Part shown: in pieces, positions 30,351 to 35,504 of the stretch
Layout: each line of letters opens with the position of its first letter
How positions within the stretch are numbered: the first letter of the stretch is position 1
From: Gemmatimonadota bacterium
GTDB lineage: Bacteria > Gemmatimonadota > Gemmatimonadetes > Gemmatimonadales > Gemmatimonadaceae
Assembly (NCBI GenBank): GCA_016871855.1
Contig: VHBQ01000029.1
Location: 1 to 36,656 of the forward strand
DNA: 36,656 bases
Direction of reading: 5' to 3'
Translations under genes and position numbers: made by a program
The notes under the pieces: model-generated
Database searches by the model: none
What the model was told of the DNA's origin: nothing
What the model saw: only the letters and a program-made list of their open reading frames with translations

Positions 30351-31067
30351 CTACACGTACCGCGCGGGGTCCTTCATTCCTGCTTGTTCGAAGCCGCGGA
30401 GCCGGAGCTGGCAGGCGTCGCAATGACCGCAGGCCGCCCCATCGCTCGCGGGGTCGTAGCAACTCGTCGTCAGGGCGTAGTCGACACCGAGCGACACACC
30501 GAGCTGAATGATCTCGCGCTTGGTCAACTGCATCAGCGGCGTGTGCACGGTCAGCCGCGTCGTTCCTTCAACGCCCGCGCGCGTGGCGACGTTCGCCATC
30601 CGCTCGAATGCCTCGATGAAGGCCGGTCGGCAGTCGGGGTAGCCGCTGTAGTCGAGCGCGTTGACGCCGATGAACACATCCTGCGCGCCGAGCACTTCGG
30701 CGAACGCCGTCGCGAACGCGAGGAAGATGGTGTTGCGGGCCGGGACGTACGTGATGGGAATTCCCGCGGCCAGGCTCTGCTCGTCGCGATCCTTCGGCAC
30801 CGCGATGTCCGCGGTGAGCGCCGAACCGCCAAATGGCCGCAGGTCGATGTCGCACACGACGTGCTTCGCCACCCGCCACTGCGACGCGAGCGCGCGGGCG
30901 CGCTCGAGTTCATGCGCGTGGCGCTGGCCGTAGCGGAACGAGAGCGCGTGCACGGCGTAGCCGGCGCGCGTCGCCCACGCGAGGACGGTCGCCGAGTCGA
31001 GGCCGCCGCTCAGCAGCAGCACCGCCGGCGTGCCCGCGGGAACGGACGGAACGGCGGGCACGGTCAC
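30351..31067 (-). CDS. queC: 7-cyano-7-deazaguanine synthase QueC
   Basis: A 238-residue ATP-dependent enzyme that makes preQ0 from 7-carboxy-7-deazaguanine and ammonia. [18 protein letters not shown] is the PP-loop (SGGxDS) for AMP transfer, and [17 protein letters not shown] follows as in the family. The C-terminal zinc site is [24 protein letters not shown] with four Cys. The start is a GTG at 31067 that overlaps the TGA of aguA (GTGA). With queD and queE it completes the route to preQ0; queF (to preQ1) and later queuosine genes are not in the window. Confidence 0.95.
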
Positions 31068-32095
31068 GCGGGCTGCTGCTGCGTGAGGCAGTGCAGCGTG
31101 CCAAGTCCCCAGACGAGATCGACCGCGTGGATGCCGACCACCGGACGGTCGGGGATCAACTCGGCGATCGTGTTGAGGGCCACGCGGTCATTGGCGTCGT
31201 TGAACGTCGGCACGAGCACCGCGCCGTTGGCGATGTAGAAATTCGCGTAGCTCGCGGGCAGGCGCTGGCCGTCCATCATGACGGCGCGCGGATACGGCAG
31301 GGTCACCACGCGCAGCGGCTCGCCGTGCGCATCATGCGCGGCGCGCAAGCGGTGCAGGTTGTCGAGCGACCGGCGGTGGTTTTCGTCGGCGGGGTCCTCC
31401 TCGTGCGCAAGCACCACCACGCCCGGCGCGACGAAACGGGCGATGTCGTCCACGTGCCCGTGCGTGTCGTCGCCGACGCACCCTTCCCCGAGCCAGACGG
31501 TGTGCGGGCAGCCAAGCTCCTCGGCGAAGACCTTCTCGTAGTCGGCGCGGCCCAGCCCGGGGTTGCGGTCCTGCACGCCGGACAGCAGCCACTCCTCCGT
31601 CACGAGGATCGTGCCGCGCCCGTCGGTCTCGATGCCGCCGCCCTCGAGCATCACGGGCCCGCGACCATCGGGACGCATCGGGACGCGGCGCGCATGCCCA
31701 GTGACGCCCGCCACGAACTCGCCCACCGTCGCGTCGAGCGCGAAGTTTTCGTACTTGGCCCAGGCGTTGAACCCCCAGTTGCACCACGAGAGCGCGCCGT
31801 CGTCGCCGATGACTCCCGTGGGGGCGCTGTCGCGCAGCCAGACGCGGTCGCAGGGCTTGTGGTGGAGGCGCAGGCGCCCGCCCACGTGATGCGCAGCAAG
31901 GCAGGCCTCGGCGTCCTCGAGCACCGTCTCGTCGTGGCAGAGGATCTCCACCTGCTCCGAGTCAGCCAGGGCGCGCGCGATCTCCGCGTAGACCCACGGG
32001 ATCGGTTCGAACTTCCCGGGCCAGTCCGGCTCGTGATGCGGCCAGGCGATCCAGGTCGCCGCGTGCGGCTCCCACTCGGCAGGGAAGCGGGGCAT
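31064..32095 (-). CDS. aguA: Agmatine deiminase
   Basis: A 343-residue amidinotransferase-fold enzyme that hydrolyses agmatine to N-carbamoylputrescine and ammonia. [20 protein letters not shown] is the standard start. Catalytic parts visible are the [12 protein letters not shown] region, the [10 protein letters not shown] His/Asp pair and the nucleophile Cys in [11 protein letters not shown] near the C-terminus (many family members read GGGxxHC there; the second Gly is Leu here). The ATG lies 3 nt after the aguB stop and the gene end overlaps queC, so the polyamine and queuosine genes are joined. Confidence 0.94.
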
Positions 32096-32098
32096 GGC

Positions 32099-33043
32099 TC
32101 AGCGCTCGCGCGGGCCGATCCAGCGGTTCAGGATCGGACCGTAGGCGTCAATGCGACGGTCGCGCAGGAACGGCCAGTTGCGGCGCGTCTCCTCGATGCG
32201 ACTCGGGTCGCACGTCGCCATCAGGATGGTGGGCTCGGTCCCCGCTTCGGCGAGCGGGCGCCCGAAGGGATCGTACACGAACGAGTGACCGAAGAACTCA
32301 AGTCCCTTCGTTCCGTCCTCCGCCTCGAACCCCACGCGATTGGCCGCCGCGACAAAGACGCCGTTGGCGATGGCGTGCGCGCGCTGCGCCGTGCGCCAGG
32401 CATTCACCTGCGCCTCGCCCCACTCGGCCTTTTCCGCCGGATGCCAGCCGATGGCCGTGGGGTAGAGCAGGATGTCCGCGCCGAGCAGCGCCGTGGCGCG
32501 CGCCGCCTCGGGATACCACTGGTCCCAGCAGATGAGCACGCCGATCGTCGCGTAGCGCGTCTTCCAGACCATGAAGCCGCCGGCTTCGCCGGCCGGCCCG
32601 CGCGAGCCCGAGGGCTGGACGGGATCGTGCGACTCGCCCGGCGCGAAGTAGTACTTCTCCTCGAAGAGCGGATCGTGCGGGATGTGCATCTTGCGGTAGA
32701 CGCCCTGCACGCTGCCGTCGGCGTCAATGACCGCGGCGGAGTTGCGGTAGACGCCCGCCGCCTGGCGTTCGTACATCGGGACGACGAGCACCACTTCGAG
32801 CTCGCGCGCGAGCGCTGCCAGCCGGGTGACGGTCGGTCCCGGAATAGGCTCGGCGAGGTCGAAGCGCTCGAGGTCGAGTTTCTTGCAGAAGTACGGCGCG
32901 TCGAACAGCTCCTTGAGGCAGATCACCTGGGCGCCGCGGGCGCGCGCGTCCCGGATGCCCGCGATAGTCTGCTCAAGGGTCTCGGCCTTCGAGGGCGCGA
33001 CGCCGTCCTGAATGAGGGCGACGGTGAACGGAGCGTTTGCCAT
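32099..33043 (-). CDS. aguB: N-carbamoylputrescine amidase
   Basis: A 314-residue nitrilase-superfamily amidase that turns N-carbamoylputrescine into putrescine, CO2 and ammonia, the step after AguA. The catalytic triad is visible: Glu in ICLKELFDAPYF, Lys in VYRKMHIPHDP and the nucleophile Cys in VLICWDQWYPEAAR. The C-terminal part RRNWPFLRDRRIDAYGPI is typical of AguB. The ATG at 33043 gives MANAPFTVALIQ, the usual start; a longer reading begins in unlikely basic sequence. It is preceded by a 165-nt gap (33044-33208) that holds no visible gene or riboswitch. Confidence 0.94.
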   Translation of the reverse strand: MANAPFTVALIQDGVAPSKAETLEQTIAGIRDARARGAQVICLKELFDAPYFCKKLDLERFDLAEPIPGPTVTRLAALARELEVVLVVPMYERQAAGVYRNSAAVIDADGSVQGVYRKMHIPHDPLFEEKYYFAPGESHDPVQPSGSRGPAGEAGGFMVWKTRYATIGVLICWDQWYPEAARATALLGADILLYPTAIGWHPAEKAEWGEAQVNAWRTAQRAHAIANGVFVAAANRVGFEAEDGTKGLEFFGHSFVYDPFGRPLAEAGTEPTILMATCDPSRIEETRRNWPFLRDRRIDAYGPILNRWIGPRER

Positions 33044-33208
33044 GGGGGCAATTTCACTTCGCCGCCGATGCGGCGCCACCGGGTGAACGACTTCTGAGGC
33101 GCCGAAACGCCAGCGCGGGATCCCGGATTCGCGCCGTGGACTGCCGTCCGCGACCGAACCTTGGGACCCCGCGCTGCGACTCCCGTGCTACACTGCCGCT
33201 CCGCTCCG

Positions 33209-34671: not shown

Positions 34672-34710
34672 GAGGCGGCGGGTGCCGCAGCACCCGCCGC
34701 CCCTCGTTTT
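34672..34710. terminator. Strong GC-rich hairpin terminator after the peroxiredoxin gene
   Basis: GGCGGCGGGTGC pairs perfectly with GCACCCGCCGCC around the loop CGCA (12 bp). The plus-strand side ends in CTCGTTTT; the minus-strand side ends in TCGTCGTTTGTC. It lies 55 nt after the peroxiredoxin stop and about 100 nt before the glycerate kinase start, both on the minus strand, so it probably separates the two transcripts. Confidence 0.72.
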
Positions 34711-34764: not shown

Positions 34765-35346
34765 CTACCGCGCGCCCGTGCTGACCCGGTCGACAATCGA
34801 GTCGAGTTGCGCGTACTGATCCTGCGACAGCGCGGAAAACGGACGGAAGACGTGCGCCACGCGCCCGTCGGGTCCCACAACGAACACCACCCGCTTGTAG
34901 AACTTCTTCAACGGGCCGATGCCGCTGCCGGTCGTCGCGTACTTCTCGGCGATCTCGCCCGTCGTGTCGCTGGCGAAGAGCATCGGGAAGTTCGCGTCCT
35001 TGGCCCACGACGCGAGTTCGTCCGCGCCGTCGGAGCTGATCGAGAGGGCGATGACGCCCTTGCCGCTGTTGAAGATCGTGGCGTACTGATCCCGGTACGC
35101 CTCATGTTGGACCGTTCAGCCCTTGGTCCTGGCCTTGGGGAAGAACGAGATGACGACGGTTTGCCCACGGAAGTCGGCGAGGCGCAGCGCCTTCTCGGTC
35201 ACCCCGGCCTTGGAGGCGCCGGGAAGCGAGAAGTCGGGGGCCATATCGCCAACCTGGGGACCCTCGCCCTGAGCCCACGCGCGCGATGCCGCCAGCCCGA
35301 CGAGGGCCAGGGCGATCACGGTGAGCGTTGCGGCACGCCATGGCAT
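34765..35346 (-). CDS. Exported peroxiredoxin, candidate selenoprotein (in-frame TGA at the catalytic Cys)
   Basis: Reading through one TGA (35118-35116) gives 193 residues: a signal peptide (ending near SRAWAQ), then VGDMAPDFSLPG, FRGQTVVISFFPKARTKG-TGA-TVQHEAYRDQYA, VIALSISSDGADELASW, FPMLFASDTTGEIAEKY, YKRVVFVVGPDGRVAHVF and the C-terminus. This is a full AhpC/TSA fold, with codon 77 at the exact catalytic position of PxxxTxxC (PKARTKG-U). The protein has no cysteine, so without selenocysteine it lacks its peroxidatic residue. A perfect hairpin lies just downstream of the TGA. The second half has no independent start with a ribosome site. Alternatives are a TGC-to-TGA mutation (pseudogene) or a sequencing error. 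GAGGAG lies upstream of the ATG at 35346. Selenocysteine machinery is not in the window. Confidence 0.78.
35080..35101 (-). promoter_or_regulatory. Candidate bacterial SECIS hairpin
   Basis: On the coding strand GGCGTAC, loop CGGGATCA, GTACGCC form a perfect 7-bp stem with an 8-nt loop. The stem begins 14 nt and the loop begins 21 nt after the TGA at 35116-35118. Bacterial SECIS elements are short hairpins inside the coding region right after the UGA, with a G among the first loop bases; the second loop base here is G. It also codes for the EAYRDQYA segment, so it is part of the gene. SelB binding cannot be shown from sequence. Confidence 0.6.
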
Positions 35347-35504
35347 GCGGGGGACTCCTCTGGTCTGGGAACGCGTTTCGACTGACCTTCTTATCTACTG
35401 CTGGAACACCAGAACAGGCAACCCGGGTTCCCTGCGGCGTGGTTGGCCATCCGCTAACGGCGCCAGCAACTTCGTCGTACCATCCAGAGAGTCCACTCGC
35501 CACG

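Follow-up and report, generated by a model that had tools for sequence, protein, structure and literature searches.

In Caulobacter, the envelope peroxiredoxin PRP is fed by ScsB, a transporter of the DsbD family. Peroxiredoxins carrying selenocysteine (Sec) in the motif TxxU are, according to the available portions of PMC13188914 and PMC9312934, an accepted bacterial family first known from Eubacterium acidaminophilum (PrxU); the preliminary description of our locus likewise stated that such enzymes occur in some bacteria. The available part of PMC5029168, a survey from 2016, tabulates 91 Sec peroxiredoxins from 78 organisms. SelA and SelB were reported from sponge-symbiont bins of various phyla in the available part of PMC5649159, where Gemmatimonadetes bins were present and were not stated to hold them. 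Here, we describe a candidate Sec peroxiredoxin gene in a stretch of 36,656 nucleotides from a Gemmatimonadota bacterium (contig VHBQ01000029.1), which in its full length is referred to as the window.

The gene is read as 76 codons, an in-frame TGA, 116 codons, and a terminal TAG (Table 1). The position of the TGA at codon 77, which is the peroxidatic site of the motif PxxxTxxC, and the reading frame were as given in the preliminary description; its count of 116 open codons after the TGA was also correct, whereas the 77 codons counted before it are 76. The residues around the TGA (F-F-P-K-A-R-T-K-G-U-T) form the full PxxxTxxU motif with its proline kept. Zero encoded Cys was found in the protein and the family has one redox residue, in agreement with the earlier proposal that Sec would be the sole redox residue. 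When the TGA was translated as a residue, the protein matched AhpC-TSA (PF00578) with 85.1 bits (cut-off of 26) over residues 32–165, a span that includes the TGA, and the Redoxin domain with 61.6 bits. A six-frame search of the genome returned the same frame with 78.8 bits and one TGA inside. Two sites matching the terminator consensus were present in the region, compared with a mean of 0.4 in shuffled sequences (sd 0.8). The observation of a TGA in a peroxiredoxin frame was thus confirmed, and the comparisons below support its interpretation as a putative selenoprotein: the gene is apparently broken by a stop and is almost certainly intact, with the stop read as Sec. Taken by itself, Sec insertion at this TGA is predicted with a confidence close to certainty, and the whole statement, that this is a real selenoprotein gene encoding an exported one-Sec peroxiredoxin, is judged from the sequence comparisons to be highly probable.

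Table 1. Positions of the Sec peroxiredoxin gene and its associated features in the window.
Feature	Position	Strand	Remarks
Sec peroxiredoxin gene (predicted)	34765..35346	−	193 aa with Sec77; stop codon TAG
TGA read as Sec (predicted), peroxidatic position of PxxxTxxU	35116..35118	−	Codon 77; from sequence and homologue alignment
GAGGAG, ribosome-binding-site-like	35355..35360	−	8 nt upstream of ATG; read from sequence
Predicted signal peptide, residues 1–25	35272..35346	−	Likely cleavage after A-W-A; without twin Arg; read from sequence
SECIS-type hairpin (predicted)	35080..35101	−	Stem 35101–35095 with 35086–35080, loop 35094–35087; starts 14 nt past the TGA
Terminator-like inverted repeat, 3' of the gene	34672..34703	−	Consensus match alone; repeat also matches the + strand

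A single TGA in an otherwise open frame could also be produced by a pseudogene or an assembly error, in which TGC or TGT was mutated or misread as TGA, and the window's genome is a draft (2.99 Mb, 85.6% complete) in 159 contigs. The relatives argue strongly against this. In a set of 60 genomes (the window's genome and 59 relatives), a family member with a single TGA was identified in 40, including the window's genome, and the TGA occupied exactly the same codon in the fetched loci. Scattered stops, which the preliminary description had named as a sign of decay, were absent: none of the 40 TGA copies contained a second internal stop within the match. Chance or damage as the cause of the TGA is excluded by these two observations. 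Nine of the ten other genomes of the genus carried the TGA form, and the tenth (81% complete) had no close copy. A scan of named genomes yielded 313 relatives, and in the best 80 of them codon 77 was TGA in 75 loci and Cys in five; the record titles named Gemmatimonadota taxa for 79, including Palauibacter and Longimicrobiales, and 'bacterium' for one. As the codons after the TGA are further constrained at the level of both the protein and the RNA (see below), a pseudogene is hardly conceivable, and it was rejected together with sequencing error on the conservation of the TGA. The fetched homologues without an internal stop had Cys at the site of codon 77, with the exception of one distant row with Ala, and the alignment with homologues proposed earlier therefore showed a conserved TGA alternating with Cys.

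Other peroxiredoxin genes were observed in these genomes. The distant row (L090 in G057) is a peroxiredoxin-like gene whose peroxidatic Cys is replaced by Ala (DGATAEM); it is located in a genome with selA and tRNA-Sec, and its product is perhaps inactive. Tandem copies of the family were found as a Cys form followed by a Sec form (L033/L062 in G028) and as two Cys forms (L045/L084 in G027), and neither selA nor tRNA-Sec was found in G027. A second Sec peroxiredoxin family, BCP-like, was represented by L091, L093, L094, L096, and L097 (G022, G015, G021, G019, and G023, respectively), with the motif DT[PS]GUTxEA and no apparent signal peptide; four of its members have a Cys located five residues past Sec. 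A third family (L095, L098, L099, and L100 in G030, G037, G051, and G043, respectively) shared the motif TPGUNxQL, lacked Cys, and had a hairpin of another form 3' of the TGA.

The search for sel genes suggested in the preliminary description yielded selA (530 bits), selD (372 bits, with its own in-frame TGA in CAGUAS), the tRNA-Sec gene selC (76.8 bits, anticodon TCA), which adjoins selD, and the C-terminal part of selB. Neither a full SelB nor the GTPase half of selB was retrieved over the cut-off in the assembly of the window's genome. A 332-aa frame, cut by the start of contig C19, gave SelB winged-helix matches; it corresponds to the C-terminal part and was 62% identical to residues 328–659 of the SelB frame (659 aa) found in a congener. 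In all five congeners searched, selB was over the cut-off. The contig end is the best explanation for the missing half. Among the 60 genomes, selA or tRNA-Sec was found in 39 of the 40 with a TGA-containing peroxiredoxin (34 had both), compared with 7 of the 20 others, and the lone TGA genome with neither was 78% complete.

These genes also bear on a possible genome-wide reassignment of TGA to a standard residue (Trp or Gly), of the kind known from codes 4 and 25. Such a reassignment would account for the open frame and for nothing more. The residue in the homologues was Cys (Ala in one) and never Trp or Gly, several orthologues of the peroxiredoxin gene terminate in TGA, of the eight matches to the peroxiredoxin family in the window's genome seven contain no TGA, and the genome has a tRNA-Sec with the matching anticodon. 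Reassignment was rejected on the basis of the alternation with Cys and the tRNA-Sec, and its probability is negligible.

The RNA downstream of the TGA was compared using 78 distinct 45-nt stretches of Sec forms. A hairpin spanning +15 to +36 relative to the UGA was identified, consisting of a stem of seven pairs (columns 18–24 with 33–39) and an 8-nt loop that reads CGUGAUCA in most sequences and CGGGAUCA in the window's genus. Of the 546 stem cells, 98.2% were paired, compared with 91.3% in shuffles (sd 0.7), and the covariation score of the stem was 0.130 compared with 0.026; none of 500 shuffles was as high in either measure. The outer pair was G-C in 42 sequences, C-G in 17, U-A in eight, A-U in one, and unpaired in ten, and the second pair was G-C in 77 and A-U in one. 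Stem pairs with both sides changed numbered two, compared with 1.0 in shuffles (reached in 7 of 500), and further pair types over the 78 sequences numbered five, without excess over the 5.4 in shuffles. Shifting the partner by one to three columns decreased the pairing to 47.3% or less. The 21 Cys homologues, examined for the same structure, were paired at 60.5%, which was no better than their shuffles (59.8%). The stretch of the window folded alone was not significant (z of −1.0; 31 of 200 shuffles were as good), and thus the SECIS assignment rests on the alignment. Neither Rfam (gathering scores) nor a tRNA scan gave a match in the window. The alignment supports a predicted SECIS-type element, a stem-loop that lies in the coding sequence immediately downstream of the UGA, and the covarying hairpin adds an RNA-level indication of Sec reading that went beyond the preliminary description. 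An A-A mismatch at the outer pair (columns 18 and 39, alignment A2) was observed in 9 of the 78 sequences, for which a stem of six pairs is presumably enough.

Codon use around the TGA differed between the Sec forms (107 sequences) and the Cys forms (21 sequences). The third-base G+C fractions of codons 80, 85, and 86 were 0.15, 0.10, and 0.03 in the Sec forms versus 0.90, 0.95, and 0.81 in the Cys forms, while the shift was 0.35 or less at all other codons compared. All three codons are located less than 30 nt from the TGA; codons 85 and 86 make up most of the hairpin loop, and codon 80 falls in the stretch that separates the stem from the TGA. Arg85 was encoded by CGT in 91 of 101 Sec forms, CGG in ten, and CGC in none, whereas 18 of the 21 Cys forms used CGC. 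Because these shifts are synonymous, they indicate a constraint on the RNA and not on the protein. It was also observed that Arg73 (35130–35128), just upstream of the TGA, was CGC in 6 of 101 Sec forms versus 17 of 21 Cys forms, and that Gln80 (35109–35107) was CAA in 86 of 101 Sec forms; judging from codons 73 and 80, the RNA constraint may reach past the hairpin.

A pattern of the TGA and the hairpin, written from the window's genus and allowing up to three mismatches, matched at least 130 of 298 Gemmatimonadota genomes, which is a lower bound because of its origin in that genus; other genera matched with two or three mismatches, and the reversed pattern used as a control gave none among the matches listed. 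At E ≤ 1e-40, selA was detected in 221 of the 298 genomes: 122 of the 130 with the pattern (none found in the other eight) and 99 of the 168 without it. In these counts, which are uncorrected for kinship, selA is common beyond the pattern genomes, and thus the use of Sec in the phylum seems wider than the peroxiredoxin gene. A tree from a quick search, with SH-aLRT as its only support measure and a warning of long branches, required six changes between Sec and Cys, three of which were forced by well-supported branches. The Cys rows of four genomes (G040, G052, G054, and G056) fell among Sec rows, to which they were joined by branches with SH-aLRT values of 88 to 97, and these genomes had no selA over the cut-off and no tRNA-Sec. 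This is as expected if Sec reverted to Cys upon loss of the machinery. One further genome (G031), a single contig of 4,636,964 bases, has the Cys form, and no Sec machinery was found in it.

From the APxF motif onward, none of the 115 Sec rows (107 distinct proteins) contained Cys, and each of the 21 Cys rows contained exactly one; in 15 Sec rows, one Cys was found within the first 22 residues, which is inside the predicted signal peptide. With a single redox residue in the family, an external reductant would be needed. The N-terminus of the window protein, read by eye, resembles a signal peptide of the Sec export pathway without twin Arg. A simple hydrophobicity rule was passed by 102 of the 115 Sec rows, 97 of which also had AxA; the 13 failing rows all had 27 or fewer residues ahead of APxF and are probably late start choices in the script. 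The window protein is probably exported, as predicted from these N-termini. Its AlphaFold model (pLDDT of 87, pTM of 0.80) contained a helix at residues 8–23, with low confidence over residues 1–30. In the fold comparison with this model, the top four chains were of the BCP type or a Burkholderia AhpC/TSA protein; typical 2-Cys enzymes and further proteins of the BCP/PrxQ group came next, and the best sequence matches in the PDB were BCP/PrxQ thiol peroxidases.

As Sec insertion is often inefficient, the UGA might act mostly as a true stop that yields a short exported peptide, with the remainder made only at a low level or under abundant selenium, in which case the gene would sense selenium instead of supplying a constant enzyme. 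Such a role is very unlikely, as the part after the TGA is as conserved as the part before it (19 and 11 invariant columns, respectively, in 40 aligned sequences). A Sec-dependent thiol-disulfide or signalling protein, instead of a peroxidase, is less improbable but still unlikely. The single redox residue would fit such a protein, and so would the fate of the motif Pro (codon 70, 35139–35137), which was present in all 21 Cys forms versus 46 of the 107 distinct Sec forms and was replaced in 61 (Phe in 36, Tyr in 18, Val in three, Ile in two, and Ser in two). Sec may relax the need for Pro, or a single clade may merely have lost it; the window protein keeps the full PxxxTxxU motif. The residue three positions ahead of Sec was Thr in 103 and Ser in four of the 107 Sec forms, and in the 40 aligned sequences, Arg152 was invariant and Thr74 nearly so; a catalytic role for Thr74 and Arg152 is suggested by analogy with other peroxiredoxins. 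No CxxC or UxxC pair is present, and the neighbours in sequence and fold are peroxidases. A peroxidase with Sec is the preferred reading.

The window gene is flanked by a Ser/Thr kinase on one side and a DUF4147/MOFRL protein on the other, and no reductant gene was found among these neighbours. In 23 of the 80 named loci (the best 80 of 313 relatives), genes for a TlpA-like thioredoxin and a CcdA-like protein were located downstream in convergent orientation; 74 of the 80 loci extend at least 1.3 kb downstream. The TlpA-like thioredoxin has WCxxC and an N-terminus resembling a signal peptide (seen in L149 and L177), and the CcdA-like DsbD_TM protein scored 154.9 bits in L177. The genome of the window has a TlpA/CcdA-like pair on another contig (C4), unlinked to the peroxiredoxin. 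Within the same 80 loci, other neighbours recurred, namely a kinase similar to that of the window (19 loci) and a PAD-type deiminase (18 loci); because unrelated genes recur about equally often, adjacency was not taken as proof of the reductant. Loci with the TlpA-CcdA pair were mostly in neighbouring clades of the tree, and the linkage may be one inherited arrangement. An electron path through TlpA-like and CcdA-like proteins to the Sec peroxiredoxin is a plausible hypothesis from gene neighbourhood in other genomes. In the window, an agmatine-deiminase-type (PAD_porph) gene adjoins a carbon-nitrogen hydrolase gene at 31064–33079; a gene of the PAD_porph type is the one found downstream of the peroxiredoxin in the cluster of 18 loci.

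In the mechanism we propose, SelB with Sec-tRNA (anticodon UCA) would bind the hairpin just past the UGA and insert Sec, and the signal peptide would direct the product to the periplasm. Aided by Thr74 and Arg152, the Sec selenolate would reduce hydroperoxides and become selenenic acid, which, a second Cys or Sec being absent, would be returned to selenolate by an outside thiol. The likeliest reductant would be an exported TlpA-like thioredoxin kept reduced by a CcdA/DsbD-type membrane protein. Tentatively, and as a scheme that is less likely than not to hold in full, Gemmatimonadota might possess a selenium-based peroxide defence of the envelope, in which electrons pass from cytoplasmic thioredoxin through the CcdA-like protein and the exported TlpA-like protein to a one-Sec peroxiredoxin that contains no Cys. 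Without Cys, the exported chain would stay outside disulfide traffic, Sec would free the site from the otherwise fixed Pro, and the trait would be old in the phylum, with reversion to Cys upon loss of the machinery.

The stem Gemmatimona- had no occurrence in the text of PMC13188914, PMC1794560, PMC5029168, PMC9312934, and PMC5330540, and no description of an exported Cys-free Sec peroxiredoxin subfamily in Gemmatimonadota was found in the available portions of open-licence PMC texts. The finding places predicted selenoproteins in a phylum unnamed in those five papers and would probably locate a bacterial Sec peroxidase outside the cytoplasm. The gene is split whenever it is annotated without Sec, and many records may therefore contain the family as unrecognized fragments; the conserved hairpin is a ready-made search motif. 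The natural pairs of Sec and Cys forms among relatives offer a way to test what Sec costs an exported enzyme and what the enzyme gains from it. More speculatively, a Sec peroxiredoxin is a possible reason for the enrichment of Gemmatimonadetes in high-selenium soils described in the available part of PMC6070768.

Four known systems were compared with the locus. The Prx-like thiol:disulfide oxidoreductase selenoprotein (UxxC or UxxU), as described in the available part of PMC9312934, shares PF00578 and an active-site Sec; in contrast, the motif of the window protein is TxxU without a partner Cys or Sec. In ScsB/PRP of Caulobacter, the likeness is an exported peroxiredoxin that would take electrons from a DsbD-type membrane protein; however, the Gemmatimonadota enzyme has Sec instead of Cys, and the transporter here would be a short DsbD_TM protein resembling CcdA and partnered by a TlpA-like protein, a link suggested by gene neighbourhood alone. 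The 1-Cys members of the BCP/PrxQ thiol peroxidases resemble the window protein in having one catalytic residue and give its best PDB sequence matches and some of its best fold matches, whereas the Gemmatimonadota family has Sec in most members seen and is probably exported; for the thioredoxin-dependent thiol peroxidase BCP (NF006960), the window protein scored 76.5 bits against a cut-off of 140. The Sec peroxiredoxin family (PF00578/COG1225, PrxU), as characterized in the available literature, is alike in the peroxiredoxin fold, the TxxU motif with Sec for the peroxidatic Cys, and bacterial UGA decoding. It differs in that the window protein has a predicted signal peptide and a Cys-free mature part and scored 38.5 bits for the NCBIfam PrxU model (NF040737; cut-off of 270), that most Sec forms of its subfamily (61 of 107) lack the motif Pro kept by the window protein itself, and that the host phylum is absent by name from the main text of PMC13188914 and PMC9312934. 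The Sec peroxiredoxin is of an already known kind and belongs to a probably exported, Cys-free subfamily in a phylum unnamed in the surveys.
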